Source of the DNA: Ruficoccus amylovorans
GTDB lineage: Bacteria; Verrucomicrobiota; Verrucomicrobiia; Opitutales; Cerasicoccaceae
Assembly: GCF_014230085.1 (NCBI RefSeq)
Contig: NZ_JACHVB010000035.1
Coordinates: 124,001-188,000 of the forward strand
Length of the DNA stretch: 64,000 nt
Direction: 5' to 3'
The translations under genes and the position numbers were made by a program. Positions 11,158 to 35,390 of the stretch are shown piece after piece. The notes beneath the pieces are model-generated. The model was given only the letters and a program-made list of their open reading frames with translations. It had not been told where the DNA came from and searched no databases. Position 1 is the first letter of the stretch; every line of letters starts with the position of its first letter.

Positions 11158-11934
11158 ATGGGCGACGTCAACGGAATGATCCTGGTCGGCGGCGCGGTCT
11201 TCTTGCGGGCCGGTGCGTTCTTCGCCTTCGTGCCGTTCACGGGGCGTCCGGTCCCGGTATTCGTGCGCGTGGCCCTCGCGCTGTTCATGGCCATCGTGGC
11301 GCTGACGACCCTGCCGCGGATGTCGGTTCCTGAGGGGCCGTTGTTGTCGCTGCTCCCGCTCGTGCTGGTGGAGGCCCTTATCGGTCTGGCCATGGCCTTC
11401 GCGGTTCAGAAAATTTTCATCATCTGTCAGATCGCCGGCATCATGATCGCGCAGGAGATCGGGCTGATGCAGGGGGGCGTTTTTAATCCCTTGCTGGGCC
11501 AGCAGGAGAGTTTGGTGGGCTCCGGCATGAACCTGCTGGCGATCGTCCTGCTTTTCTCACTTGGACTGCACCGGGAGGTTATCTCGGCTTTTCTTGAGTC
11601 GCTGCGGCTGCTGCCTCCCATGAATATCCTCGGTTCGGGTGCCGCCGAAGAGGTGCTCAAAACGCTCAGTCGCTTGTTCTTATCAGCGGTGCAGATGGCC
11701 GCTCCCTTTATCGCGATGAACTTCATTGTCGTCCTGGCCTTTGGTGTGCTCGGTCGCGCGGCGCCCGCCATCAATGTCCTCTTTGTCAGTTTTCCGGTGC
11801 GTCTGCTGGTCGGACTATTGCTGCTGGCCGCACTGACGCCTTTCCTGGGGCGGCAAATCCTCATGCACTTGCAAAACGTGCCCGGTGATATGATCCGGCT
11901 GATCAACGTCGAGCACAACGGGAGGGCTGAGTAA
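11158..11934 (+). CDS. fliR: Flagellar export gate protein FliR
   Basis: FliR is the third core subunit of the export gate. The start is set at the ATG at 11158 because the GGAGG at 11144-11148 is 9 bases upstream. A TTG at 11152 in the same frame would be too close to it. The 258-residue product is strongly hydrophobic with several membrane helices. It has the family features GRPVPVFVRVALALFMA and GEIIG-like region IAQEIGLMQGG. It ends one base into the flhB start codon. Confidence 0.94.
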   Translation: MGDVNGMILVGGAVFLRAGAFFAFVPFTGRPVPVFVRVALALFMAIVALTTLPRMSVPEGPLLSLLPLVLVEALIGLAMAFAVQKIFIICQIAGIMIAQEIGLMQGGVFNPLLGQQESLVGSGMNLLAIVLLFSLGLHREVISAFLESLRLLPPMNILGSGAAEEVLKTLSRLFLSAVQMAAPFIAMNFIVVLAFGVLGRAAPAINVLFVSFPVRLLVGLLLLAALTPFLGRQILMHLQNVPGDMIRLINVEHNGRAE

Positions 11935-13028
11935 TGGCTGGTGACGAAGACAAGTCCTCAAAAACCGAAGAGCCGACCTACAAGCGGCTGCGGGACGCCC
12001 ACGAAAAGGGAAACTTCGCCCGGGCCGAGGAGATCGGAGTGGTGCTGGGGTTAGCGGCAGCGTTCGCCGTGCTCGTTCTGTACGGTAAGGATGCGGCGAT
12101 CTCGATACGCCGGATGGCCGTCTGGATGTTCAGTCACTGCGGAGAGATCGAGATCACGCCGAGTCTCGTCGTCGATCAGGCTTGGGCGGGGCTAGGTTAC
12201 ATGGGCGGGCTGCTGGCACCGCTGTTGGGGGCGGCTTTGGTTGCCGCGCTGCTGGCAGGCGGATTGCAGAGTGGCTTTCGCCCGACCCCGAAGGCGTTCG
12301 GGGTGAAGTTCGAAAAGCTCCACCCCGTCAACGGCCTCAAGCAGAAGTACTCGGGGCAGGCGCTGGCGAATTTCGCTTTCAATCTGCTCAAGTTGTTCGT
12401 GGTCGCCGGGGTCGTTTACGAGGGCTTTGAGCGCCTCTCCCACGATCCAATTTTCTTCACCGTAGTCGAGCCCGAGCGGATTCCGCAGTTTATGCTTTCT
12501 TCGACGCTTACGATGTTGGCGTTCCTGATCTTCGGCCTGGGGGCTATCGGCGGACTGCATTTCCTCTTTCAGAAGCACCGCACGCGGCAGAGCCTGCGGA
12601 TGAGCAAGCAGGAGATCAAGGACGAGCACCGGCAGCAGGAGGGCGACCCGCATATGAAGCAGATGCGGCGACAAATGGCGCGGCGGTTCGCCCAGCGTCA
12701 GATGATGACGGAAGTCCCCGGCGCCGACGTGGTCATCGTCAACCCGACCCACTATGCAGTGGCCCTGCGCTATGACCGTCAGCGGCACGCCGCCCCCATC
12801 GTGTTGGCCAAGGGCATGAACCTGGTGGCGGGGCGTATCCGCGAGATAGCCGGGCAGCACGCCGTCCCTATCATCGAAAACAAACCCGTCGCCCGGGCGC
12901 TCTTCAAGGTCGGAGAGCCGGGGCGGGAGATCCCTCCCGCGCTTTACCAGGCCGTGGCGGAAATTTTGTCCCTGGTTTACCGGCTTAAGCGCCGGGGCCT
13001 GGTCAGAGGAAGGATGGAGAACGTCTGA
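11934..13028 (+). CDS. flhB: Flagellar export switch protein FlhB
   Basis: FlhB is the export-gate protein whose self-cleavage changes substrate specificity from hook to filament. The 364-residue product starts with the typical DKSSKTEEPTYKRLRDAHEK and has four membrane helices. Its cytoplasmic tail carries the autocleavage NPTH motif in DVVIVNPTHYAVALRYD at about residues 264-280. All residues needed for cleavage appear intact. It partners with FliK, encoded upstream. The start overlaps the fliR stop by one base, and flhA follows after 2 bases. Confidence 0.96.
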   Translation: MAGDEDKSSKTEEPTYKRLRDAHEKGNFARAEEIGVVLGLAAAFAVLVLYGKDAAISIRRMAVWMFSHCGEIEITPSLVVDQAWAGLGYMGGLLAPLLGAALVAALLAGGLQSGFRPTPKAFGVKFEKLHPVNGLKQKYSGQALANFAFNLLKLFVVAGVVYEGFERLSHDPIFFTVVEPERIPQFMLSSTLTMLAFLIFGLGAIGGLHFLFQKHRTRQSLRMSKQEIKDEHRQQEGDPHMKQMRRQMARRFAQRQMMTEVPGADVVIVNPTHYAVALRYDRQRHAAPIVLAKGMNLVAGRIREIAGQHAVPIIENKPVARALFKVGEPGREIPPALYQAVAEILSLVYRLKRRGLVRGRMENV

Positions 13029-23423: not shown

Positions 23424-23749
23424 ACCCTGTCACACCCAGTGTCACCGCGTCGTCCGCTCCGGCTTCTCAGCCGGGTGACGGGCCACCTGTAACCAATTTG
23501 GCCGAGGCCTCCCAGCAGTTCGAGGCCGTATTCCTGCGCCAGTTTCTCGGGGACGCGCTCAAGCCCCTGCTCTCGGCCACCCCGGAAGGCGAGGGCGGCA
23601 ATGCGCACGTGTACCAGTACATGGTGACCCAAGTATTATCCGACAGTCTCGCGGAACGCGAGGTCTTCGGCTTGGCCACACTGCTCCAGCACCAGCTTTC
23701 CGGATTTGCCGAACAGGACCCATCGCCATCTAACCAGAACAACCAATGA
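23420..23749 (+). CDS. flgJ: Rod-binding protein, FlgJ N-terminal domain only
   Basis: This 109-residue protein matches the N-terminal rod-binding domain of FlgJ. It has LAEASQQFEAVFLRQFLGDA, then YQYMVTQVLSDSLAEREVFG and a final LATLLQHQL. The peptidoglycan-hydrolase half found in enterobacterial FlgJ is absent. This is a common arrangement, in which a separate muramidase opens the wall. It is coupled by overlaps to flgI and flgN. Confidence 0.9.
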   Translation: MNPVTPSVTASSAPASQPGDGPPVTNLAEASQQFEAVFLRQFLGDALKPLLSATPEGEGGNAHVYQYMVTQVLSDSLAEREVFGLATLLQHQLSGFAEQDPSPSNQNNQ

Positions 23750-24264
23750 ACAATAATGAGGTATGTATCGCCGGCTGGGATGAGCTGGCAGAGTTGTTGC
23801 GTGAAGAAGTGGCTCAGTACGGGCGGCTTTTTCGGCACCTCGAAGATCAACGCGCCGCCCTGATCGCTCAGGACCCACCCGCCATTCTCGAATTAAACGT
23901 GCAACTGGAAAAACAGGCCGTCGTGCTCAACGAATTACAACAACGGCGCGGGGAGTTGGTCACTGCTTTGCGGGAGGATCTCGGGCTGTCCGGCGAGATG
24001 GGCATTATCGAGATGACCCAGGCGGCGCTCCCTGAAAACGCCCCCTTGATCGAGGAGCGGCTGCGCGAGGTCAACCGCCTGATTCGGGAGACTCGCCGCT
24101 ATCTTTCTTCTAGCCGTGTGCTTTATCGTAAGGCCTGGGAAATCGGGCAGGCGGTTCTGGCTGCCGCCGGTTTCCAGCAACAGTCGCTCTCCCTCTACTC
24201 GCAAGGAGGCGTCGCCAGTGCCCCAAAGGCAGCAGCGGGGAGCTTAACCAACCAACACGCTTAA
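23746..24264 (+). CDS. flgN: FlgN-like export chaperone
   Basis: FlgN is the cytoplasmic chaperone for the hook-filament junction proteins FlgK and FlgL. The 172-residue product is helical and hydrophilic. It has long N-terminal helices (WDELAELLREEVAQYGRLF) and a mid-region rich in Glu, Gln and Leu. The C-terminal tail is disordered with Ser and Ala. The position directly before flgK and flgL is diagnostic, since the sequence family itself is weakly conserved. Confidence 0.85.
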   Translation: MNNNEVCIAGWDELAELLREEVAQYGRLFRHLEDQRAALIAQDPPAILELNVQLEKQAVVLNELQQRRGELVTALREDLGLSGEMGIIEMTQAALPENAPLIEERLREVNRLIRETRRYLSSSRVLYRKAWEIGQAVLAAAGFQQQSLSLYSQGGVASAPKAAAGSLTNQHA

Positions 24265-24268
24265 ACCT

Positions 24269-25729
24269 ATGTCGGGCCTCTTCTCCAGTTTGTCATCGAC
24301 CGCAGGTGCTCTGCGCGCTCACGGACTGGCGGTTGAACTGACGGGCAAGAACATCGCCAATGTCAACAACGCCGCCTACGCGCGGCAGCGGGTCACGACA
24401 GGGGCGAATGTTTACACCGGAGGGGCATCCGTCTCCATCGAGCAGGTCCGCAACAGGTTGCTGGATGCCCAGATCGCGGCCCAGGGTGGCACCCGGGCCG
24501 GGCTGGAGGTTCGGGCGGACATCGCCTCGCAGACGTTGACGGCTCTGGGGGAATCCATCGACCGGCTCGACGATCCGCAGTTCATTGATGATGCCGCCGA
24601 GGGAGGGAACGGTATCCGTAGCGCCCTGGATGGTTTTTTCAACGCGTTCGAGGAGTGGTCGTCCAACCCCGGGGACGCCGCCCGTCGCACCCAGGTGATG
24701 GCAAGCGCCGAAACCCTCGTGGACACTTTTCACCGCGTCGATCAGCAACTTGGAGAGATCGAGAAAAACGCACGCCAGAGCGCGGCTTCGGAGGTGGAGT
24801 CGCTCAACGGGCAGCTCGCCGAAGTCCATGAGCTGAATCTGCGCATCGCCCGCGTGGAAAGCGGCGGGCGGGAAACGGCCGCGGACCTGCGTGACCGCCG
24901 ACAGCAACTGCTGGAGAACCTGGCCCAGAGCGCGGGGATCCATGCGAACGAGCAGGCCAACGGGACCGTCACTCTCAGCCTGACGACCTCCGTTGGCGAG
25001 GACCGGATTCTGCTGGACGCGGCTGGCCCCCGGACTCTGAGCTACGATGCCGAGTCTGACCGTTACCAGCTTCCGGGAGGGGGGGAGGCTTTTCAGCCCG
25101 AACAGGGCAGGCTGGGGGCCCTTTCGCGTTCGCTGAAAGAAGTGACAGGCCAGGCCCGCTCGGACCTGGACGCGCTGGCCGCTTCGGTGGCGGAGCAGGT
25201 CAACACTCTGTACCATCGTCCGTATGCGGCCGCCACCGCCGGACCTCCGGCCACTGGCGAGGTTTCCGAGGCCAACTTTTTTGGCCAGCCCACGCCGCCC
25301 GGCGTTGGAACCGCGGTTACCGCCGCCTCGATCGCACTCTTTGAGCATAGCGACTCGCCGGCCTTCGAGGCCCTCAGCGCGTCCAGCCTGCGCAGCGCCA
25401 CCGGTGAGAGCGGTAACGACCTCGCCCGAGCCCTCGCGGACCTGCGCGATGCCCGGCCATCGACCTTGGGCGGGAACAGCCTGGGAGACTTTCCGCGTAG
25501 CCTGGTGAGCAAGCTCGCCGTGCAGACGTCCCAGTTGCAGGATAGCCTGAATGCCCAAGGTGACATCGAAGAGCTTTTGCTGTCTCGTCGGGCGGGTGAA
25601 AGCGGTGTCTCCATGGACGAGGAGGTCGCCAACCTCGTGCAGTACCAGCAGGCCTTTCAGGCGAGTTCGCGCGTGTTCAACACCCTTTCGGAAATGCTCG
25701 ATACCGTCATTAACCAGCTTAGAAGCTGA
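24269..25729 (+). CDS. flgK: Flagellar hook-associated protein FlgK (HAP1)
   Basis: FlgK is the first hook-filament junction protein. The 486-residue protein has the conserved N-terminus LFSSLSSTAGALRAHGLAVE, then LTGKNIANVNNAAYARQRV. A long helical D1 region follows. The C-terminal D0 contains GVSMDEEVANLVQYQQAFQA and ends FNTLSEMLDTVINQL, the standard FlgK ending. It lies between its chaperone gene flgN and flgL. Confidence 0.96.
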   Translation: MSGLFSSLSSTAGALRAHGLAVELTGKNIANVNNAAYARQRVTTGANVYTGGASVSIEQVRNRLLDAQIAAQGGTRAGLEVRADIASQTLTALGESIDRLDDPQFIDDAAEGGNGIRSALDGFFNAFEEWSSNPGDAARRTQVMASAETLVDTFHRVDQQLGEIEKNARQSAASEVESLNGQLAEVHELNLRIARVESGGRETAADLRDRRQQLLENLAQSAGIHANEQANGTVTLSLTTSVGEDRILLDAAGPRTLSYDAESDRYQLPGGGEAFQPEQGRLGALSRSLKEVTGQARSDLDALAASVAEQVNTLYHRPYAAATAGPPATGEVSEANFFGQPTPPGVGTAVTAASIALFEHSDSPAFEALSASSLRSATGESGNDLARALADLRDARPSTLGGNSLGDFPRSLVSKLAVQTSQLQDSLNAQGDIEELLLSRRAGESGVSMDEEVANLVQYQQAFQASSRVFNTLSEMLDTVINQLRS

Positions 25730-25749
25730 CTCTCCAGCCTCTCTTGCCC

Positions 25750-26751
25750 ATGAGAATATCTTACAACCAGAACAATAACCAACTGATCGGCCAGCTCAGC
25801 CGGCTCAATCAGGAGCAGAACCGTTTACAGATTCAGCTCAGCAGTGGTCAGCGCATCCAGAGCGCAGCTGAGGCGCCCGCCACAGCCGACCGGGTGATGG
25901 GCATTTCCAGCCGCAAGGGACAGTTGCAGGCCTTATCCAATAACTTGAACCAAGCCCGCGGTGTCGCAGAGGGAGCTTTGTTCGCGATGGAGCAGCTCAA
26001 GTCCGTGGCGGACAAGGCTATCGGCAGCTTGCAACGCATGGCCGAAATGACGGACGCCACCGAACTGGCGGGCCAGGCTTCGCAGATGGACCAACTGCTT
26101 GAGCAGGCTATTCCTCTCGGCAATACCGATGTCGATGGCCAGTATGTTTTCGGCGGCGGGCACGCGTCCGTACCACCTTACACGGTGGTACGTTATCAGG
26201 CGGGTGACGTGCTTGTGGACGCGACTCAACCAGTGGACCCGGCCACCGGGCTGCCACCAGCGCAGTCGGGGCCCGTTACCGTGCCGGACGAACTGGTGGG
26301 GCGGATCGCCTTTGTGCGTTTCACCGGCACCGCGCAGGCCGGGCAGGAACTGACCTACCGGGTGGGGGAACGCTCGGAGCTTTCACCTTTTCCAGACGTG
26401 ACCGCCAGCCAGGAGCAGGCGGCGTATTTTAATCGGATGATTGCCGCCCGCGACGCCGGCTTTCAGGAAGACCACGCGGCACTGGAAGGCATGGCCGACA
26501 GCCTTGACGATGGGCAGGAGGCGCTGAACCTCGGCATGCTCGAAACCGGCACGCTTATCAACGGGATCGAAACGCTCGAAGGCATCAACGCGAGCCGTTT
26601 TCAGCAACTGGAGGATACCGTCTCAAAGGAACTCGATATCGACCTGGCGGAGACAATCGTCCGCTTTCGAAACAGCCAGAGCGCCTATGAGGCGGCTCTC
26701 AGTTCCAGCTCACGGATCATGGGTCTTTCGCTGCTTGATTATCTGCGCTAA
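25750..26751 (+). CDS. flgL: Flagellar hook-associated protein FlgL (HAP3)
   Basis: FlgL is the second junction protein, related to flagellin. The start is the ATG at 25750 rather than an upstream TTG. The 333-residue product begins MRISYNQNNNQLIGQLSRLN, followed by EQNRLQIQLSSGQRIQSAAE, as in FlgL and flagellin D0/D1. The C-terminus contains ETIVRFRNSQSAYEAALSSS and ends SRIMGLSLLDYLR. A variable middle domain is present. The stop codon TAA overlaps a possible -35 element for the next gene. Confidence 0.94.
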   Translation: MRISYNQNNNQLIGQLSRLNQEQNRLQIQLSSGQRIQSAAEAPATADRVMGISSRKGQLQALSNNLNQARGVAEGALFAMEQLKSVADKAIGSLQRMAEMTDATELAGQASQMDQLLEQAIPLGNTDVDGQYVFGGGHASVPPYTVVRYQAGDVLVDATQPVDPATGLPPAQSGPVTVPDELVGRIAFVRFTGTAQAGQELTYRVGERSELSPFPDVTASQEQAAYFNRMIAARDAGFQEDHAALEGMADSLDDGQEALNLGMLETGTLINGIETLEGINASRFQQLEDTVSKELDIDLAETIVRFRNSQSAYEAALSSSSRIMGLSLLDYLR

Positions 26752-26783: not shown

Positions 26784-28355
26784 ATGGACTCTCTCTCATC
26801 GACGCAAATCGCCGATTTTCTCAATCCGCTGGCATTTGCCCGGACGCGGGAGAACCGTGTCGGACAGTCGAAACTGGGAGAAGAGACCGGCACGATCCGC
26901 AGTCCGGATATCGAGGCTTCGTATCGGCTGGTTACCGGGGCCTCCACGCGTCTCGAAACGCTTGAGGGGAATCTGTTCACCATGCTGGAGCTGGCGGGAA
27001 AGGGCGCGTCCGCCCGTACCGAACGCGCGCGGCAGGATATCTACGGGCAATTGCGCAGCCTGGGCGCGGGCTTCGACCAGGTGGTGGAAGCGATCCGGTT
27101 CAATGACCGGGCGGTGTTCACCGGCGACCCCATCTCTCTGAGCCTGGGGGAGGGTTTTTCAGATATCCAGCTCAATCCCGACAAGCTCCTGACGTACGGC
27201 GAGGACTCGCTGAACCTTTCCCAGACCCGGGTCGGGGCCGAAGTCGCGGTTAGCTACGGGCTGGAGGACGCGATCGTCAACCAGGCCTATGACATCGTCG
27301 GTCTGGACATCGAAAGCGCCGCTTTCCTGCCCGGCGGAAATCCCGCTCTGGAATTGGAGAGCGGCGCCTACAAGCTCGGCATCACCTATCAGGGGGCGAA
27401 CTCCAGTGTCGAGTTGCGCGACCTCGAAGGGAACCTGATCGAAAAGCAGGACGGGGTGGACCTCTCCGGTGACGGGCGGGAGTGGGTGGATTTTGACGCG
27501 GGCATACGCCTTTCCTTTGAAAAATTCAACCTCTTCGCCACCTACGATAAATACGATTACGAGCGCAACGGGCCGGCGAAGCTTTCGGCGACGCTCAACT
27601 ACCGGCGCATCGACGAGTACATCCTGCGCACCGGCGATGAACCGCCTGAAGACTCGGTTACTATGTCCTTTCCGGGCAGAATCCGAATCGGCAGCACCAG
27701 CCTGGAGGCGCTCGCCCCGCACATGAACCCGATCGCCACCGGGGTCACGGCTGCCGAGGGCGGACGCTACACCGTGGAGGTGGACTACAACGGTGCGCAG
27801 TCGCGGGTGCGCCTCAAGGACGAACTGGGTCGATTGCAGAGATACCTCTTCGATGTGGACCTTTCAGCCGAGGGCACGACTGAGGTCGATTTCGGCAACG
27901 GCCTGGCCTTCGACTGGAAGAACACGGGCTTTGGCGATCAGAAGGCGAGCTTGACCGCTTTCCTCGATTACCGGCTGGCGAAGCCCCCGGTGGAAGAGTT
28001 TGATTTCAAGGCCTACGCCGATCAGTTGGCGGACGCGATCGAGATTATTCAGGCGCAGCGCGAGATGATTGATACCGCCAAGGCGCAGATCGAGCAAAGC
28101 TACAGCTCCCGTAATTCGGGTGGGGCCGGAGGGCAGGTGCTTCCGCTTAATCTATCGGGGATTTCGACTATCCTCGGGGGGGCGAGCGCCGATAGCTTTT
28201 TTGCCTCCACCACTTCTCAGGCGCGACTCGGCGTTATCAGCGATCAGATTTTTAGCGCGGCCTCCGCCTTCGCCGTGCAGCGCGGGCTCGATGAGTCCAC
28301 ACTCGCGCAGTTGGAAAATTCCGCGGCCAATGGCAGGTGGTTCGCAAGCGGCTGA
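26784..28355 (+). CDS. Flagellin-like axial protein with two internal beta repeats (unassigned, fliD position)
   Basis: I cannot assign this 523-residue protein to a named family. Residues about 55-115 look like the D1 helix of flagellins and FlgL. A helical RLETLEGNLFTMLELAGKGA leads to GAGFDQVVEAIRFNDRAVF, echoing the flagellin pattern of FDQ...FN..LF. Two related beta-rich modules follow, at about residues 193-275 and 326-397. Both share a Y.GA.S.V.L.D..G.L pattern, then DLS..G and VDF..G. A long helix (about 405-440) and a polar C-terminus close the protein. The helix-beta-beta-helix layout fits an axial or hook-associated protein. It sits between flgL and fliS, where fliD often lies. It could be a cap, junction or minor filament protein. 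Confidence 0.65.
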   Translation: MDSLSSTQIADFLNPLAFARTRENRVGQSKLGEETGTIRSPDIEASYRLVTGASTRLETLEGNLFTMLELAGKGASARTERARQDIYGQLRSLGAGFDQVVEAIRFNDRAVFTGDPISLSLGEGFSDIQLNPDKLLTYGEDSLNLSQTRVGAEVAVSYGLEDAIVNQAYDIVGLDIESAAFLPGGNPALELESGAYKLGITYQGANSSVELRDLEGNLIEKQDGVDLSGDGREWVDFDAGIRLSFEKFNLFATYDKYDYERNGPAKLSATLNYRRIDEYILRTGDEPPEDSVTMSFPGRIRIGSTSLEALAPHMNPIATGVTAAEGGRYTVEVDYNGAQSRVRLKDELGRLQRYLFDVDLSAEGTTEVDFGNGLAFDWKNTGFGDQKASLTAFLDYRLAKPPVEEFDFKAYADQLADAIEIIQAQREMIDTAKAQIEQSYSSRNSGGAGGQVLPLNLSGISTILGGASADSFFASTTSQARLGVISDQIFSAASAFAVQRGLDESTLAQLENSAANGRWFASG

Positions 28356-28363
28356 GATCACTC

Positions 28364-28717
28364 ATGGGACAGGAAAATTCGCAACGTGCTTCTATGATTT
28401 ACCGCCGCCATCAGGCCGACAAGCCCGAGGCCCGTAAAAAGCGTTTGTTGCGTCTGTACGCATTAGCCATCCGTGCGGCTGAGGAACATCGGTGCGACGA
28501 CTTGGTGCATTGCCTGGATATTCTACGGGCGGGGCTGAACCCAATCGCCGGGCTCGACCTGGCGCTCAGCCTGCACGAATTATACGGCGATATCGAGCGC
28601 GCCGCCCGGTCCGGTCAATATGCGGAAGCGGCGCATAGCCTGGAATCGCTCAAGGGTCTCTGGGATGCTCGTGCCCGCCTGGACCATGCCCTGATCGCTC
28701 CCCATCGCGGCGAATAG
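28364..28717 (+). CDS. fliS: FliS-like flagellin export chaperone
   Basis: This 117-residue helical protein matches the FliS pattern. The segment LLRLYALAIRAAEEHRCDDL corresponds to the FliS LLxLYDGAI helix. It is followed by ILRAGLNPIAGLDLALSLHE and LYGDIERAARSGQYAEAAHS, then a terminal LKGLWDARARL. FliS binds the C-terminus of flagellin and prevents early polymerisation. The start is set at the ATG at 28364, 8 bases after the preceding stop. The location just before the flagellin genes supports the call; sequence similarity is moderate. Confidence 0.75.
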   Translation: MGQENSQRASMIYRRHQADKPEARKKRLLRLYALAIRAAEEHRCDDLVHCLDILRAGLNPIAGLDLALSLHELYGDIERAARSGQYAEAAHSLESLKGLWDARARLDHALIAPHRGE

Positions 28718-28921: not shown

Positions 28922-30040
28922 CTAGCCGAGCAACTGAAGCACCTGCTGGGACTGCTGAGAGGCCAGCGAGAGCGTCTGCGTGGCGAGTTGGTTGGAGGTT
29001 TGCAGGGCAAGCAGGTTGGCACCTTCCTCGTTGAGGTCGGCGAGCGTCAGCTTGTCCGCGCCTTCTTCGAGGGTGTTAATGAGCTCGTTGGCGAAGTCTT
29101 CGCGGGTACTGATCGTAGCGAGGTTTTGGGTCAGGTCGGTGGCCTGTGCCTTGAGCGCCGCGTCAAAGGCCTCAATCTCTTCGGTCAGCCTTGTGAGCGT
29201 GGCCATGTAGTCGTCGTCGCCCCAGTCGATCATGCCGTCCCCGCCACCAGCTTTCGCCCCCTTGATGCCGAAGATGGCACCCTGGGTGTCCTCAATAGCG
29301 ATCGCGAAACCTTCCGACGCGCTACTTGCGGAGTTGGCGGCTGTGCCGATGACGGCCGAGTTGGTGTCGCCACCGAGTTCGGTGTAACCCGTTCCGCCGG
29401 TGAGGGCGACAGAGGTGTTCCCGGCGGAGGTCGCGGTGTAGCCCGAGGCGGAAACCGCCGCGGTGGAGTTGACGGTAACGCTCGCGGTCAGGTTATTGGA
29501 AGCGATTTCCCCATTACTGTCGAGACGTCCACGCCCGTCGGTGCCGGCGCCCTGAAGGTTGAAGCCCTTCACCTTCAGCTCGGAGTCACCGTAGTGGACA
29601 CCGAACTGCACCGTCTGCACGGCGTTACGCTCCAGCAGGTTAATGCCCTGGTAGCCGGAGTCCTTGGCGATTTCGCTGACCTGGACGAGCAATTCGTTGA
29701 ACTGCTGCCCCAGGCCTTCGCGTGAGCTTGCATCGGAGTCACCGAGCGCATTGTTGACCACCCCCCGCATCGAGCTGATGAAGCTGCGGATGGTGCTGAT
29801 GCCGTTGTCAGCGGCCTTGATCTGTTGCACCGCCTGTCCAAGCCCGTCGAGTCGGGAACTCAGGGCCGAGGCCCGGTCTTGGAGGTTCACAGCTGCGAAA
29901 AAGTTGGTGGGGTTCTCGACCGCGCTGTTGACTTTCTTACCGGTCGAGAGGCGGTCGGCGGTACGCTCGAACAGTTTTGAGGAGTGCTGCAGTCGATTCA
30001 GGTTGGCCCGAATGCCGGCACTTAGGGATATCTCTGCCAT
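28922..30040 (-). CDS. Flagellin (downstream copy)
   Basis: This 372-residue flagellin would polymerise into the filament. D0/D1 N-terminal motifs are clear: AEISLSAGIRANLNRLQHSS, ERTADRLSTGKKVNSAVENP, and later GYQGINLLERN. The C-terminus has ANLLALQTSNQLATQTLSLA and ends SQQVLQLLG. The centre (about residues 180-260) is rich in Ser, Thr, Ala and Gly and is the likely surface-exposed, glycosylated part. It closely resembles the second flagellin upstream on the same strand. A weak sigma-28 -10 element is at 30060-30067. The AGGA of AGGATAAGCA serves as ribosome-binding site. Confidence 0.95.
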   Translation of the reverse strand: MAEISLSAGIRANLNRLQHSSKLFERTADRLSTGKKVNSAVENPTNFFAAVNLQDRASALSSRLDGLGQAVQQIKAADNGISTIRSFISSMRGVVNNALGDSDASSREGLGQQFNELLVQVSEIAKDSGYQGINLLERNAVQTVQFGVHYGDSELKVKGFNLQGAGTDGRGRLDSNGEIASNNLTASVTVNSTAAVSASGYTATSAGNTSVALTGGTGYTELGGDTNSAVIGTAANSASSASEGFAIAIEDTQGAIFGIKGAKAGGGDGMIDWGDDDYMATLTRLTEEIEAFDAALKAQATDLTQNLATISTREDFANELINTLEEGADKLTLADLNEEGANLLALQTSNQLATQTLSLASQQSQQVLQLLG

Positions 30041-30059
30041 TGCTTATCCTGTGTTGAGA

Positions 30060-30067
30060 TTATCGGT
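30060..30067 (-). promoter_or_regulatory. Possible sigma-28 -10 element before downstream flagellin
   Basis: On the minus strand the sequence reads ACCGATAA, one base off the sigma-28 -10 consensus GCCGATAA. It lies 19 bases before the flagellin start codon. No good TAAA -35 element is at the usual 15-base spacing, so it may be a weak or accidental match. Confidence 0.3.
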
Positions 30068-30160
30068 GGGTATGGGGAAATCAGGCCGGAGGAATTTTTT
30101 GCCTACCTGTGGCCTGTTTTGTTGTTTCACCCCCTTCTAATCAAAAATCGTGCCAGAGAT

Positions 30161-30188
30161 AAAAAAAAGGGCCGGTTGCCCGGCCCTT
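30161..30188 (-). terminator. Rho-independent terminator after upstream flagellin
   Basis: On the minus strand GGGCCGG, loop GCAA, CCGGCCC forms a perfect 7-bp GC stem, extended by two A:T pairs. It is followed by a run of eight T. The hairpin sits about 30 bases after the stop of the flagellin gene at 30219. It shows that the upstream flagellin is transcribed as its own unit, separate from the downstream copy. Confidence 0.9.
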
Positions 30189-30218
30189 GCATGTGGGTTG
30201 AGTGTGAAATCAGCTTTT

Positions 30219-31334
30219 TTAGCCGACCAGAGACAGCACGGTCTGGGACTGCTGCGAGGCCAGCGAGAGCGAGGTCGTCGCGAGCTGGTTGGAGGTCTGC
30301 AGGGCGAGCAGGTTGGCACCTTCGGCGTTGAGGTCTGCCAGGGTCAGCTTGTCCGCGCCTTCTTCCAGCGTGTTGATCATCTCATTGGAGAAGTCTTCGC
30401 GCGCGGTGATCGTGGCGAGGTTCTGGGCGAGGTCGCTGGCCTGGCTCTTGAGCGCTGCGTCGAACTGCTCGAGGTCCTTGGTCAGGCCGGCCAGGGAGCT
30501 CTGGTAATCATCGCCACCCCAGTCGATCATGCCGTCGCCGCCGCCGGACTTGGCGCCCTTGATGCCGCTGATGTTGCCGTCCTGGTCTTCGATCGCGATG
30601 GCGTAGCCTTCGGACACCGTGGTGTTGGTGTTCTGGGCGGTGCCAATCTCGGCCGATTCGGTCGCAGCCAGTGCGCTGTAACCGCTCGCTCCGTTGAAGG
30701 AGACGGTCGTGTTCCCGGCGGAGGTCGCGGTGTAGCCGCTGGCCGAAACCGAGCTGGTGGAGTTGACCGTGACGCTCGCGGTCAGGTTGTTGGAGGCGAT
30801 TTCGCCGTTGGTGTCGAGGCGTCCGCGCCCGTCGGTGCCGGCACCCTGGAGGTTGAACCCTTTGACCTGCAGGACGGAGTCGTCGTGGTTTTCGCCGAAC
30901 TGTACGGTCTGGGTTTCATTACGCTCCAGCAGGTTGATGCCCTGGTAGCCGGAGTCCTTGGCGATTTCACTGGTCTGCACCAGCAGTTCGTTGAACTGTT
31001 TGCCGAGGTCGTCGCGGGCGCTGGCATCGGTGTTGCCAATCGCGTTGTTGACCACACCCTTCATCGAGCTGACGAAGCTGCGGATGGTCGAGATACCGTT
31101 GTCGGCGGCTTTGATCGACTGGACCGCCTGGCCCAAGCCGTCGAGGCGCGCGTTCAAGCTGCTGGCCCGGTCCTGAAGATTGACCGAGGCGAAGAAGTTG
31201 GTCGGGTTATCGATAGCAGAGTTAACGCGCTTGCCGGAAGCGAGGCGGTCAGCCGTGCGGTCGAACAGTTTGGAGCTCTGTTGCAGACGGGTAAGATTCG
31301 AACGAATCCCCGCGGTGATTGAGATTTCTGACAT
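30219..31334 (-). CDS. Flagellin (upstream copy)
   Basis: This 371-residue flagellin paralogue has the same D0/D1 ends as its neighbour: SEISITAGIRSNLTRLQQSS, FDRTADRLASGKRVNSAIDN, and GYQGINLLERNETQTVQFGE. The C-terminus has ANLLALQTSNQLATTSLSLA and ends SQTVLSLVG. The two copies agree over most of their length; changes concentrate in the Ser/Thr-rich centre at about residues 195-265. It has its own strong terminator and a candidate sigma-28 promoter at 31393-31419. It is divergent from the putative modification genes. Confidence 0.95.
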   Translation of the reverse strand: MSEISITAGIRSNLTRLQQSSKLFDRTADRLASGKRVNSAIDNPTNFFASVNLQDRASSLNARLDGLGQAVQSIKAADNGISTIRSFVSSMKGVVNNAIGNTDASARDDLGKQFNELLVQTSEIAKDSGYQGINLLERNETQTVQFGENHDDSVLQVKGFNLQGAGTDGRGRLDTNGEIASNNLTASVTVNSTSSVSASGYTATSAGNTTVSFNGASGYSALAATESAEIGTAQNTNTTVSEGYAIAIEDQDGNISGIKGAKSGGGDGMIDWGGDDYQSSLAGLTKDLEQFDAALKSQASDLAQNLATITAREDFSNEMINTLEEGADKLTLADLNAEGANLLALQTSNQLATTSLSLASQQSQTVLSLVG

Positions 31335-31425: not shown

Positions 31426-33060
31426 ATGCGGAAAGCCCGAAAAAAGTTTTTGGCATGGGAATTGATTAGTAGGGCCATGCAGATGATTAAACGCGAAGAG
31501 AGGCAAAATTTTCCGGAAGACTCGGCAGTGTCTGCCGATGCGGAGAACACTTATGCCGCTGTGACCGGCCTGCAGCGGAGGATCACACACGAGTCTCTCG
31601 ATCACGTCGCCTTCGCGGAACTCGGCGAGGCTTGGCAGCAGGCCGGCCACCTGGGCGAAGCTATCGTAGCCTTCGAGCGCGCTTTGCAGTTGAAGGAGTA
31701 CTCCGTCCAGCGGAAGCTCTCGGACGGAGCGGCCAGACTCATGGACCTTGAAGCAGCCGCGCGCACTCCCGGTCAGGTTTTGACGCTTGGTGGCTATGCG
31801 TTCCCGAGGCTCCTGATCCACCATACAGGCGGGCTCATCCTCGAAGGTCGAAGTGCTGACGGACAGGCCTTGCTCAAACTTTATTTGAATCCCGAAGGTC
31901 GCGAAACAGTTACTCGCGAGGCCAGGACTCTGAAAATCCTCAACCGTGCGGAGGTCCTGGCGGCCCCTCGGCTGTTAGCCGTGGGAGAAGTTTCCGGCAC
32001 GCAGTTGCCGGACACCCTCGACGAGGCCTGCCGGGCAATCCTGCGGACGGCAGGTACGGAAAAGTTTTCCTTTCTTATCCACAGCTTCCAGAAACAGGAC
32101 GCGGGCTGGAACTTCGCGGATGTTGCCCTGGCGATGCTCGAACTACGCGCTTGCGGAATTATCAATCCCGGCCTTACCGCCGCCGATATCCGCTACGATG
32201 CGGAGGCCGGTGTTTGCGGCTTTGCGGGATTCGCCGGCGCGCAGCAGGCTCCGGAGCAACTTCGCTCACTGCCTGCCCGGGAATTTTTCCGCGAGCTGGC
32301 CCGGCAAGCTTCGGAGTGCTCACAGGAAAGTTTCAGTGCCACCCTGCAAGGCATCGAGCAGGACGGACGATGGGCGGAATATTTTGCCGCCGACGCCCTC
32401 GACCTGTTTCGCACCCATGCTTTCGTCCCGCAATGGACGACGGGCTGCCCGCGCCGGGTTTATCATACGGTGACCGAGCGGGACGTGGCCATTACCGGCG
32501 GGCGCGAGCTGTCAGTGGAGCGGCGGGCGCTGCTTGAGCAGATCGCATTTGAGCCGGACGAAAGCGTATTGGACGCGGGCTGTGCCGGTGGCCAGATCAG
32601 CGTTTGGCTGGCGCGTCGGGGGTGTCGTGTCGTGGCCGCTGATGTGGACCGCCGGCTGATGCACGGCTGCCAGATGGTCGCAAACATCACCGGACTCGAT
32701 GTTACGTATCTCGAAGTCGATTTTGACTACGACGAGGTGCCGGGGGCGTTCCGGACCACGTTCGCCCTGGGGCTGCTGCCACATCTGCGCCGGCGTGAAG
32801 AGGCCTGTGCTAAATTGGCTGCCGCCACCACGCACCGGCTGATCGTCGAGGCCGCTTTGGCTGAAGACGGCTACAAGTGGGTCAATCAAGGCTTCGTGAA
32901 ACTGGAGCCGTGGGCGTTCCCGGACACGGAAGCACTGGTGGACGAACTGGAGCGGCTGTTTCCCGGCTTCACTCATGAGCGAACCCTCGGGATGTGCGAC
33001 GAGGATCGCTACCTCTTGGAATTTAAACGCAAAAGCACAAAGGAGGGCGACGGATGTTAG
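31426..33060 (+). CDS. TPR - kinase-like - SAM methyltransferase fusion protein
   Basis: This 544-residue protein joins three parts. A TPR-like helical pair lies at about 61-92 (FAELGEAWQQAGHLGEAIVA). Residues 120-275 look like a degenerate protein-kinase fold. LLKLY with Lys151 resembles the beta-3 lysine, REARTLKIL the C helix, and GIINPGLTAADI (244-255) the catalytic loop with HRD and its Asp lost. GFAGFAG stands where DFG is expected. Residues 365-510 form a class I SAM methyltransferase, with motif I VLDAGCAGGQ (381-390) followed by VVAADVD. The start could also be one of the in-frame ATGs at 31477 or 31486. The divergent flagellins and the downstream glycosyltransferase suggest a role in flagellin or glycan modification. 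Confidence 0.75.
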   Translation: MRKARKKFLAWELISRAMQMIKREERQNFPEDSAVSADAENTYAAVTGLQRRITHESLDHVAFAELGEAWQQAGHLGEAIVAFERALQLKEYSVQRKLSDGAARLMDLEAAARTPGQVLTLGGYAFPRLLIHHTGGLILEGRSADGQALLKLYLNPEGRETVTREARTLKILNRAEVLAAPRLLAVGEVSGTQLPDTLDEACRAILRTAGTEKFSFLIHSFQKQDAGWNFADVALAMLELRACGIINPGLTAADIRYDAEAGVCGFAGFAGAQQAPEQLRSLPAREFFRELARQASECSQESFSATLQGIEQDGRWAEYFAADALDLFRTHAFVPQWTTGCPRRVYHTVTERDVAITGGRELSVERRALLEQIAFEPDESVLDAGCAGGQISVWLARRGCRVVAADVDRRLMHGCQMVANITGLDVTYLEVDFDYDEVPGAFRTTFALGLLPHLRRREEACAKLAAATTHRLIVEAALAEDGYKWVNQGFVKLEPWAFPDTEALVDELERLFPGFTHERTLGMCDEDRYLLEFKRKSTKEGDGC

Positions 33061-35390
33061 TGGCGAAACCGGATCTTTTCGAAGAAGCGCGGCTCTTGCA
33101 CCAGAGCGGCGATATCGCTGGTGCTATCGCCGGCTACCGGCAACTGCTGGCGAACCAGGCGCATCCGCACGCGCCGTATTTGCTGGGTGTAGCTTTGATC
33201 CAAAGCGGTCAGGAGGCCGAAGCGCTGGAACCTTTGGAAACAATGCGGCGGCAGCGTCCCGGTCATGCCCCGACCTGGTGCGCTCTGGGCGAAGCCTTGG
33301 GGGGGCTCGAGCGGTACGAAGAATCGCACGTCGCCTATGCGCACGCGCTTCAGCTCGATGCGAACTCCCTTCCTGCCGCCCGCGGTAGCGCCGCTATCCT
33401 TGAGCTTGAGGGCGATTGGGAAGCGCTCGCGGTCTTCGCCGACGAGGCGGCGGACAAGCACCCGGACGACGCGGAGATCCTCCGCTTCCGCATCCGCGCG
33501 CTCAAGGAAATGAACCGCGCGCCCGAGGCGATGCTGCTGTGCGTGCGATTCCTCGTCGAATATCCGGGGCAGGCGGACGCTCTCCGCTATTTTGAAGACC
33601 TCTTTCATCTCATCCGTACGCCGGGCGACGATTTGCTCGCGCTCATGGATACACTGCCGGACGCGCGCGGACAGACCCTCTACATCCGCGCCCTCGCGCG
33701 GCGAAAAGACCCCGCCGGAGCCATCGCCGCGTTCCAGCGGCTGGGCCGGCTCCACCCGACACAGACGCTTCTCAAAGCGGAGAACCTGGGCTTCATCCTT
33801 CAAGGAGAGGACTTGGCCGGAGCGGCTGAGCCGTTCTTGCGGGCCGAGGCCGAGAAGGCCCCGCTCGACGATGCCCGTCTGCGCCGCTTGATCGAGAACC
33901 TGCTCCTGCAGGCCAAGAACGAAACCCCGCGCAAGTTCGACGAAGCCCGCGATCTGGCGCGTATCCTTCTTCAGCGTAATCCGGACGACCCCGATGCCCT
34001 GACCACGATGGGCAACGTGCTTATGGGCGCGTCCCGGCCCCAGTTGGCCCTGCCGTATTACGACAGGCTCATTGAAAAAAATCCCGATCACCCGTTGCGC
34101 GCGTCCCGCCTGTTCAGCCTCAACTATGACGACGCTCGCAGCCCCGAGGAAATCTTCGAGGCGCACCGCAGTTGGGGCGAGCGATTTGAGGAGGCGAACC
34201 CCGTGATGGACGAGCCGTTCGAAAATGACCGCGACCCGGAGCGGCGGTTGCGAATCGCCTACCTTTCGCCGGACCTGGGATACCATCCGGTCGGCACCTT
34301 TTTCATCAACATCTTCCCTCAGCACGATTCCGCAGCGGTGGAAGTTTTCCTGTACTCCAACCGGTACGCGCAGGACGGGGACGATCCCCGCTCGCAGGAG
34401 TTTCGTCGGATCGCGGGTGAGGACCACTGGCTGTGGACGCGGGGCCTCTCAGCCGAGCGTCTGGCCCGCCGTATCCGGCGTGACCGTATAGATATTCTTA
34501 TTGATCTGGCCGGGCACACCTCGCACTCGCGGCTGGACGTGCTGGCCCGCCGGGCCGCGCCCGTTCAGGTCTCGTGGCTCGGTTATGCGAACACGACCGG
34601 CTTGACCCGCGTGGACTACCGCTTCTCCGACGCCATCGTCGAGCCCCCGGGTGAGGCGGACCAGCGCAGCACGGAGGAAATCTACCGACTGCCCAACGGC
34701 TTTCACGTCTTTGCACTACCCGCGCACACGCCCGAGGTTGCGTCGCCGCCTTGCCTGAAACGGGGCTACGTAACCTTCGGCACTTACAACAATATGAATA
34801 AGCTGGGCGCGGCCAGCGTGGAGCTGTGGGCGCGGCTGTTGAAGAAAACGCCCGGCTCGCGCATCCTGATCAAGCACTCGACCCTGGCCGTCCTGGACAA
34901 CCGCGAGTCTCTGCGCTCTCTTTTCGCCATGCATGGGATCCAGGCCTGGCGCGTCGATCTGCGAGAGACCACCGCCGGCCATCAGGAACACTTGCGCTCC
35001 TATGAGGAGATCGACATCGCCCTTGACCCGCTCTCTTACAACGGCACGACCACGACCTGCGACGCGCTGACGATGGGCGTTCCGGTACTGACCTTGCCCG
35101 GTCGTACGCATGCCTCGCGCGTGTCGGCCAGCCTGATGCACCGCGTCGGTCTCGACGGGTGGGTGGCACGCGATGAGGAGCACTTTATCGAGATCGGGGC
35201 CCTTGCTGCGCAAAACCCCGAGGCTCTTGCTCAGTTGCGGCAGGACTTGCGAGCCCGGTTCCTGGCCTCCCCGCTGAGCGACGGAGCCTCGATGGCGCGG
35301 GACCTCGAATTTGCTTACCGCCGGATGTGGCGTCGCTGGTGCGAGGCTGTATCCACGGACCCTCACACCCCTAAAGCTGATAAATTATGA
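33054..35390 (+). CDS. TPR O-GlcNAc transferase-like glycosyltransferase (GT41 type)
   Basis: This 778-residue protein has an N-terminal TPR superhelix (about residues 1-370) and a C-terminal OGT/SPINDLY-type catalytic domain (about 395-760). Family hallmarks include LRIAYLSPDLGYHPVG with the conserved His, and DILIDLAGHTSHSRLDVLAR. QVSWLGYANTTGL and DPLSYNGTTTTCDALTMGVP with the following VLTLPG also match. Such enzymes transfer a sugar from a nucleotide sugar to Ser/Thr of proteins, and homologues beside flagellin genes glycosylate flagellin. The start overlaps the preceding methyltransferase gene, and the end overlaps the Sel1-repeat gene. The donor sugar cannot be told from sequence. Confidence 0.9.
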   Translation: MLVAKPDLFEEARLLHQSGDIAGAIAGYRQLLANQAHPHAPYLLGVALIQSGQEAEALEPLETMRRQRPGHAPTWCALGEALGGLERYEESHVAYAHALQLDANSLPAARGSAAILELEGDWEALAVFADEAADKHPDDAEILRFRIRALKEMNRAPEAMLLCVRFLVEYPGQADALRYFEDLFHLIRTPGDDLLALMDTLPDARGQTLYIRALARRKDPAGAIAAFQRLGRLHPTQTLLKAENLGFILQGEDLAGAAEPFLRAEAEKAPLDDARLRRLIENLLLQAKNETPRKFDEARDLARILLQRNPDDPDALTTMGNVLMGASRPQLALPYYDRLIEKNPDHPLRASRLFSLNYDDARSPEEIFEAHRSWGERFEEANPVMDEPFENDRDPERRLRIAYLSPDLGYHPVGTFFINIFPQHDSAAVEVFLYSNRYAQDGDDPRSQEFRRIAGEDHWLWTRGLSAERLARRIRRDRIDILIDLAGHTSHSRLDVLARRAAPVQVSWLGYANTTGLTRVDYRFSDAIVEPPGEADQRSTEEIYRLPNGFHVFALPAHTPEVASPPCLKRGYVTFGTYNNMNKLGAASVELWARLLKKTPGSRILIKHSTLAVLDNRESLRSLFAMHGIQAWRVDLRETTAGHQEHLRSYEEIDIALDPLSYNGTTTTCDALTMGVPVLTLPGRTHASRVSASLMHRVGLDGWVARDEEHFIEIGALAAQNPEALAQLRQDLRARFLASPLSDGASMARDLEFAYRRMWRRWCEAVSTDPHTPKADKL

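Follow-up and report, generated by a model that had tools for sequence, protein, structure and literature searches.

The locus considered here is compared below with that of the filament cap protein FliD (HAP2), among others. As described in one article, the Salmonella cap is a FliD pentamer in which domains D2 and D3 form a star-shaped plane and the D0 and D1 helices form a plug beneath it (PMC12221982). According to two other articles, filaments require FliD to grow in vivo (PMC8781033; PMC8306008). A further source reports swimming Rhizobiaceae that lack FliD (PMC6913195), and Brucella is said, in a section of another, to have no FliD homologue (PMC3017070); one table of a review lists a Brucella gene as FliD (PMC8781033). 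Among the open-licence literature searched, we found no title or abstract opening on a FliD substitute in Verrucomicrobiota or on a protein such as the one described below.

We analysed a 64,000 nt stretch of Ruficoccus amylovorans DNA (the window) that carries a large flagellar gene cluster. In this cluster, a gene that we term X occupies the position in which fliD might be expected. Its product appears to be a flagellar axial protein and is a candidate filament cap.

Gene organization

X stands fourth in a closely spaced series of genes, flgN-flgK-flgL-X-fliS-like (Table 1). The gaps separating flgN, flgK, flgL and X are 4, 14 and 32 nt in order, and the FliS-like gene begins 8 nt past the X stop codon. 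The X open reading frame starts with ATG, and its stop-to-stop frame comprises 526 codons, which therefore leaves no space for an N-terminal extension. The reading frame and its Pfam-named neighbours agree with the initial annotation, which had placed a 523-residue protein between flgL and a fliS-like gene. Both flagellin genes of the window lie downstream of the X/fliS-like pair on the opposite strand.

All 10 of the upstream reading frames that were scanned are flagellar by Pfam or consistent with that context, and correspond to FliG, the type III ATPase (FliI), the hook protein (FlgE), FliM, FlhB, FlhA, a sigma factor (FliA by sequence reading), MotB, FlgG and FlgI. FlhF, MotA, FlgF, FlgA, FlgH, FlgJ, FliP and FliR were also named in the cluster, from sequence reading only. 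Beyond the flagellins are two large genes (31426-33060 and 33054-35390) that we guess by eye to encode flagellin-modifying enzymes. Relatives of these genes occur near X in other genomes (both in L131, L140 and L141; only the second in L132 and L133).

Table 1. Features of the X locus, in window coordinates.
Feature	Coordinates	Strand	Basis and remarks
flgN	23746..24264	+	Pfam; same gene run as X
flgK (HAP1)	24269..25729	+	Pfam; same gene run as X
flgL (HAP3)	25744..26751	+	Pfam Flagellin_N and position after flgK; same gene run as X
X (candidate filament cap, flagellar axial protein, 523 aa)	26784..28355	+	ORF, homologues, predicted structure
X residues 1-40, short N-terminus without counterpart of flagellin residues 1-64	26784..26903	+	alignment, fold alignment
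X residues 41-119, N-terminal helices and hairpin of the flagellin-type D1	26904..27140	+	PDB profile search, model, Pfam Flagellin_N in relatives
X residues 189-275, beta module 1, FlgL/FlgK-D2-like	27348..27608	+	profile-profile, models
X residues 322-398, beta module 2, homologous to module 1	27747..27977	+	profile-profile, BLASTP, models
X residues 408-445, C-terminal D1 helix	28005..28118	+	model, fold alignment
X residues 446-523, tail, poorly conserved, pLDDT <50, putative D0 equivalent at most	28119..28352	+	model, profile comparison
FliS-like chaperone gene (117 aa)	28364..28717	+	profile; ATG at 28364, mechanical ORF from GTG at 28337
flagellin 1 (372 aa)	28922..30040	-	Pfam; alignment
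flagellin 2 (371 aa)	30219..31334	-	Pfam; alignment; plasmid matches

Sequence relations of the X family

X alone has no supported match in Pfam, NCBIfam, PDB sequences or PHROGs. An alignment was built from 17 full-length members, of which the other 16 are 26-38% identical to the window protein. The resulting profile recovers 14 PDB sequences at E <= 10, and 10 of these are flagellins or flagellin homologues (E 2.4e-8 to 0.055) that match profile positions 32-187. They include 2zbi (the best, at 2.4e-8), 3k8w, 3k8v, 8jmv and 9atl; the first three, which are the top matches, represent a cell-surface flagellin homologue. By name, FliD, FlgL and FlgK do not feature among the 14. The matches outside the flagellins are two designed Ig-like proteins (the better, 8bl6, at 4.7e-4 over the second beta module), an adhesin and an mRNA export factor. 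Pfam Flagellin_N (PF00669) matches 7 of the 17 members at E <= 1 (best 4.3e-7), X itself not being among them; of six members examined individually, three matched, from profile position 55 or 61 onwards, one of these matches lying above the cut-off. The NCBIfam flagellin-domain model NF009444 matches four members (best 6.4e-8). Comparison of the X profile with two local flagellin alignments gave weak signals (19.9% and 3.4%) in the expected register, and Pfam Flagellin_C matches neither X nor any of the 17 members.

The FliD models FliD_N (PF02465) and FliD_C (PF07195) match neither X nor any aligned member, and both were detected in all 14 local FliDs that served as a positive control. Profile-profile comparison (hhalign) of X with 14 FliDs of relatives yielded 0.9% in the wrong register. 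The corresponding value for the window FlgL is 0.1%, from a single-sequence template that makes this a weak test. The X family is real and unnamed in the libraries searched. The statement in the initial annotation that X belongs to no family it knows holds for the lone sequence, but the family as a whole has the flagellin D1. Of the profile comparisons that it proposed, that with flagellin was positive over D1, and those with FliD and, in the weak single-sequence test, FlgL were negative.

Some further candidates were set aside. Searches of Pfam, NCBIfam and PHROGs gave no supported match of X to a non-flagellar family. Lipoprotein_18 matches 9 of the 17 members (best 6e-4) in short pieces, which fall on the beta modules where examined and are below the cut-off in the four members examined, and FliC_D2 matches two members (best 7.4e-4), also in short pieces; both were disregarded.

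Predicted structure of X

We modelled X as a monomer with AlphaFold2 using the 17-row alignment (mean pLDDT 75.6, pTM 0.63). The model contains helices at residues 43-76, 80-103 and 408-445, as anticipated by the proposal of a D1-like helical N-terminus and a helical C-terminal part. When the whole model was searched with Foldseek, 29 PDB matches were obtained at E <= 0.001, all of them flagellin, FlgL/HAP-3 or hook-filament-junction chains. The TM-scores of these 29 best rows are low (0.14-0.27 by query length), which may reflect domains that are shifted relative to each other or different.

VIA-align placed residues 41 to about 446 of the model on the D1 domain of axial proteins. The top match is flagellin (3k8v_B, Z 15.1, rmsd 3.1 A, 156 residues aligned), followed by FlgL (5zj0, Z 10.0, 4.0 A, 160), FliD (6sih, Z 8.1, 2.9 A, 135, from FliD residue 34) and FlgK (4ut1, Z 7.3, 20.6 A, 202). 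For helical folds, a Z under about 13 may indicate a mere common arrangement, and only the flagellin rows stand clear of this value.

The N-terminus of the family has the consensus MxxLTxxQIxEFNxxxAFAxxR. In the X model D1 begins at residue 41; the matched D1 starts at residue 62-69 of the flagellins and FlgL, at 88 of FlgK 4ut1 and at 34 of FliD 6sih. X has 40 residues ahead of D1, which is nearer the 33 of FliD 6sih than the 61-68 of the flagellin and FlgL matches. The flagellin-type segment of about 64 residues ahead of D1, which we take to be ND0/ND1a, is not present in X. A hint by eye in three members that the C-terminal tail might correspond to flagellin CD0 was not supported by profile comparison: the tail profile does not resemble CD0 of two flagellin alignments (0.2% each) or FliD (1.6%).

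The two beta modules are true repeats (99.3%, E 8.6e-21, 35% identity over 77 columns in an hhalign profile-profile comparison). A control comparison of the beta-module profile with the FliS-like profile gave 0.2%. The two copies in the window protein also match each other by BLASTP (E 4e-9), the residues aligned lie close to those first proposed by eye (about 193-275 and 326-397), and invariant residues are maintained in the modules across the 17 members. The beta region was modelled separately (pLDDT 82.9, pTM 0.52). Its top seven fold matches (Z 8.3 to 5.5; values below 8 may represent a common arrangement) comprise three FlgL chains (5ziz, Z 8.3, 3.8 A, 94 residues; 5zj0, Z 7.9, 2.8 A, 88; 5yti, Z 6.9, 3.2 A, 91), FlgK 4ut1 (Z 8.0, 10.2 A, 170), a single flagellin and a pair of 552-residue chains, from junction or filament-assembly complexes, that we took for FlgK. 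FliD 6sih scores lower than the FlgL and FlgK rows (Z 4.0, 3.8 A, 74 residues), and the best row outside flagellar proteins reaches Z 3.5. We therefore assign the modules to the FlgL/FlgK D2 fold with moderate confidence, because Foldseek found no PDB match for the beta region alone at E <= 0.001 and the assignment comes from a second-look aligner. The FlgL chain aligned to module 1 is 5zj0 and the one aligned to module 2 is 5ziz, so the simplest history may be that a FlgL-type D2 was duplicated within a flagellin- or FlgL-type protein that had lost its N-terminal helix.

X can be compared with three kinds of known protein. It has in common with flagellin (FliC/FlaA; closest solved structures 2zbi and 3k8v) the N-terminal D1 helices and hairpin, by both profile and fold, but differs in its short N-terminus, its undetectable CD0 and Flagellin_C and its D2-like modules. 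Like the junction proteins FlgL and FlgK, it has a D1 fold and D2-like modules and is encoded in the same gene run; unlike them, it has two tandem modules after a short N-terminus and no sequence match to the window FlgL. FlgL has a single D2. As in FliD, a helical D1 with two beta domains between its helical halves follows a short N-terminus in the predicted model, and the gene lies next to a FliS-type neighbour; in contrast with FliD, the D1 and beta folds are nearer those of flagellin and FlgL, respectively. Prediction of the structure of X alone, one of the checks suggested at the outset, points to a flagellin-type D1 carrying two FlgL/FlgK-D2-like modules.

A divergent FliS accompanies X

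Judging from its sequence, the gene downstream of X is a divergent FliS. The family profile of this partner matches FliS in the PDB (1ory, E 3.2e-7) and, by hhalign, a local FliS profile whose seven members are all Pfam FliS (95.9%). Pfam FliS (PF02561) matches 8 of 14 partner members at E <= 1 (best 2.3e-6), and the window's own copy has no match at this threshold. The FliS proteins of FliD-bearing relatives are unlike the partner in this respect, all seven matching Pfam FliS (best 2.6e-35). Of 20 FliD-bearing loci read, at least 7 have a FliS gene no more than about 1.3 kb downstream of fliD (all seven Pfam FliS). The proposal of a fliS-like gene downstream of X was thus upheld by family-level comparison.

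A FliS-like gene is located immediately 3' of X in 15 of 18 homologues (17 full-length and one split between contigs). In G163 and G438 it is a few kb from X, past a flagellin array, and on the 7.8-kb contig that carries X in G423 none was found. At E <= 0.01, the 15 genomes that carry X contain four Pfam FliS matches, namely three X partners and the displaced gene of G438; all four are of the partner type, and therefore no other FliS was seen in the carriers. The FliS-like protein may serve X, flagellin or both. In G163 (L048/L127) and G438 (L051/L130), a gene of 317-320 residues, acetyltransferase-like by eye, directly follows X, and the FliS-like gene is placed beyond three flagellins in tandem.

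X loci in other genomes

The flanks of X were read with tblastn using 28 window proteins as references; the FliP piece was out of frame and unusable. X adjoins flagellin genes in 7 of the 15 carriers (G000, which is the window genome, G163, G438, G440, G455, G577 and G607), two of which also have flgF-flgG-flgA-flgH-flgI nearby. In the other eight, X occurs with or without a FliS-like gene, and the flank read holds no recognisable filament or hook gene, several of the contigs being short.

Eight flagellins from five carriers have a distinctive N- and C-terminus in common. The flagellins of X carriers (window 28922-31334 (-); L048, L051, L066, L067, L021 and L032) appear as a distinct kind, with the C-terminal pattern SLSLASQ-x-x-Q-x-VL-x-L-x-G. 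A carrier flagellin used as query at 1e-5 matched only carriers' flagellins among the flagellin loci examined. A classical flagellin matched the flagellins of FliD-bearing genomes, some from genomes with neither protein and, weakly, one carrier flagellin. Among plasmids, window flagellin 2 matched flagellins of Azospirillum, Methylobacterium, Pelagibacterium and Methylorubrum (18 records, <=46% of the query covered). The annotated neighbours in two such regions, checked by eye, included no X-like gene, and a tblastn search of plasmids at E 0.01 found no X homologue.

In three of the carriers X is present as two full-length paralogues (L010/L063 in G472, L052/L062 in G482 and L059/L064 in G514), every one followed by a FliS-like gene. 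The second copies of these genomes form a clade of their own with the only copy of G462. In G577 (L140, C24, about 11810-12553), a shortened second copy, in which the N-terminus is missing and both beta modules are mostly absent, lies between two flagellins and has its own FliS-like gene after it.

X and FliD were not found together

X was found in 15 of 372 genomes of the same order, including the window's own, and in 10 of 100 genera. A homologue in the MAG Puniceicoccales bacterium Verruco_02 was taken as G472 and counted once. A phylum-wide search of 387 genomes with the first profile gave matches in five, of which three (G000, G012 and G163) have full-length X; no full-length X was found outside the order. 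The remaining two matches were rejected, the one in G111 as ordinary flagellins matched over D1 only and the one in G121 as weak and judged spurious. The 17-row profile, run against 42 chosen genomes (32 with flagellin and without FliD_N or X, and 10 others), recovered only the same G111 flagellins.

Within the 372 genomes, Flagellin_N, a model that is also triggered by FlgL, occurs in 113 and FliD_N in 66. All 66 FliD_N genomes and all 15 X genomes fall within the Flagellin_N set, with no overlap between them. The chance of no overlap is 4e-7 by genome, a value that treats kin as independent. Counted by taxonomic family, with Flagellin_N in 16, FliD_N in 8, X in 5 and both X and FliD_N in none, exclusion has only P = 0.013. 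The FliD_C search covered 47 of the 113 genomes with flagellin, namely the 15 carriers (none matched) and the 32 without FliD_N and X (seven matched). Thus, 25 of the 113 have neither FliD, by both models, nor X, and therefore a cap is not visible in every flagellin-bearing genome. These genomes, nine of them listed at >= 90% completeness, may have another cap type or assembly gaps. Examples with Flagellin_N but neither FliD nor X are G010, G011, G021, G608 and G629. A control genome, Caulobacter vibrioides, has a Flagellin_N match and no FliD_N match.

The possibility that a FliD is hidden elsewhere in the window genome was examined by searching the whole assembly (64 contigs, 97.8% complete); neither FliD_N nor FliD_C was found, which agrees with the lack of a visible fliD remarked on at the outset. 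Three genomes of the window's genus (G001, G002 and G003) have no Flagellin_N, FliD_N or X, and flagella seem patchy within this genus.

Discussion

The profile matches, predicted fold, operon position, neighbouring flagellins (7 of 15 carriers) and presence of Flagellin_N in every carrier support the assignment of X as a flagellar axial protein. Neither a supported non-flagellar family for X nor a FliD in its genome, the two findings that would count against such a role, was encountered. Among the three roles that the initial annotation had offered for a new protein (hook-associated, cap-like or in the filament as a minor component), we rank the cap first because X does not co-occur with FliD, because it and a FliS-like partner take the HAP2/FliD slot and because its N-terminus before D1 is short. 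Capping is also the most economical role given that FliD was not found and that the gene occupies the HAP slot next to a FliS-like gene. Without the N-terminal segment, a flagellin-type protein would probably not extend a filament but could sit on its end. On balance we read X as a hook-associated axial protein. Its most likely role, favoured only slightly, is that of a filament cap that does not descend from FliD and takes up the FliD slot.

For this function, we infer export, ring formation, location at the tip and capping. X would be secreted and built in the manner of flagellin and FlgL, with a short N-terminus, D1, two tandem D2-like beta domains, the C-terminal D1 helix and a flexible tail, an order of parts that would parallel the FliD cap with its D2-D3 plane over a D0-D1 plug. 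With its FliS-like partner, X would occupy the fliD-fliS slot in Verrucomicrobiota lineages where FliD was not found. It may oligomerise into a small ring at the far end of the filament, where the D1 helices and tail would plug into the filament and the two beta domains would form a lid, and flagellin would fold and insert beneath this ring.

Several observations count against a cap or a link to FliD. There is no sequence relation between X and FliD, and the D1 of X is nearer to flagellin, and its beta modules nearer to FlgL and FlgK, than to FliD. Further points are that the exclusion follows taxonomic family, with the P value given above, the 25 flagellin-bearing genomes with neither protein, a tail unlike CD0 or FliD and the eight flanks devoid of filament and hook genes. 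We also count on this side the Foldseek null result on the beta region, the low TM-scores, the 8bl6 match and the paralogue pairs in three carriers.

Other roles would suit some of the observations. The location of X directly after flgK-flgL, and beta modules most like the D2 of the encoded proteins, would fit an additional protein of the hook-filament junction, descended from FlgL or flagellin, that forms a third HAP layer between FlgL and flagellin. This is the foremost of the alternatives and is nevertheless unlikely, as X lacks the segment that flagellin and FlgL have before D1 and a new layer leaves the absence of FliD from X-bearing genomes unexplained. Ranked after it, and also unlikely, is a minor filament subunit, surface decoration or adhesin with exposed beta domains, comparable to the 2zbi homologue. 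That the top PDB sequence matches are to this cell-surface protein, that two beta domains would be exposed and that three genomes have paralogue pairs argue for such a role, but the missing N-terminal segment probably makes packing in the lattice unlikely, the beta modules have invariant residues across 17 members, and the tie to a FliS-like partner and the absence of FliD are left unexplained.

It is also improbable, and we place this third among the alternatives, that X is a true FliD orthologue diverged past recognition in a slot that was never replaced. The shared slot and partner, the short N-terminus and the broad helix-beta-beta-helix order are all as this would predict, but the FliD_N model finds 66 genomes of the order and no X carrier, the profile-profile comparison with 14 FliDs of relatives gave 0.9%, and X D1 is nearer flagellin than FliD (Z 15.1 versus 8.1). 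Least probable, and in our estimate very unlikely, is a non-structural exported protein, such as a secreted flagellin-like protein or a late-export regulator. The low-confidence tail and the eight carriers in which X, alone or with its FliS-like partner, has no recognisable flagellar neighbours speak for it; the conserved axial-protein D1 and D2-like modules and the HAP-operon position in the window speak against it.

We hold it slightly less likely than not that X represents a second, independently evolved bacterial filament cap, derived from a flagellin that lost its N-terminal polymerisation helix and duplicated a FlgL-type D2, and that it displaced FliD in Verrucomicrobiota lineages. Were this true, capping would need only a D1 plug and a beta lid and not the FliD family. 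X offers a concrete and testable candidate substitute for FliD in another phylum, recognisable by its gene order and chaperone-like partner, and allows one to ask which components of a cap are indispensable.
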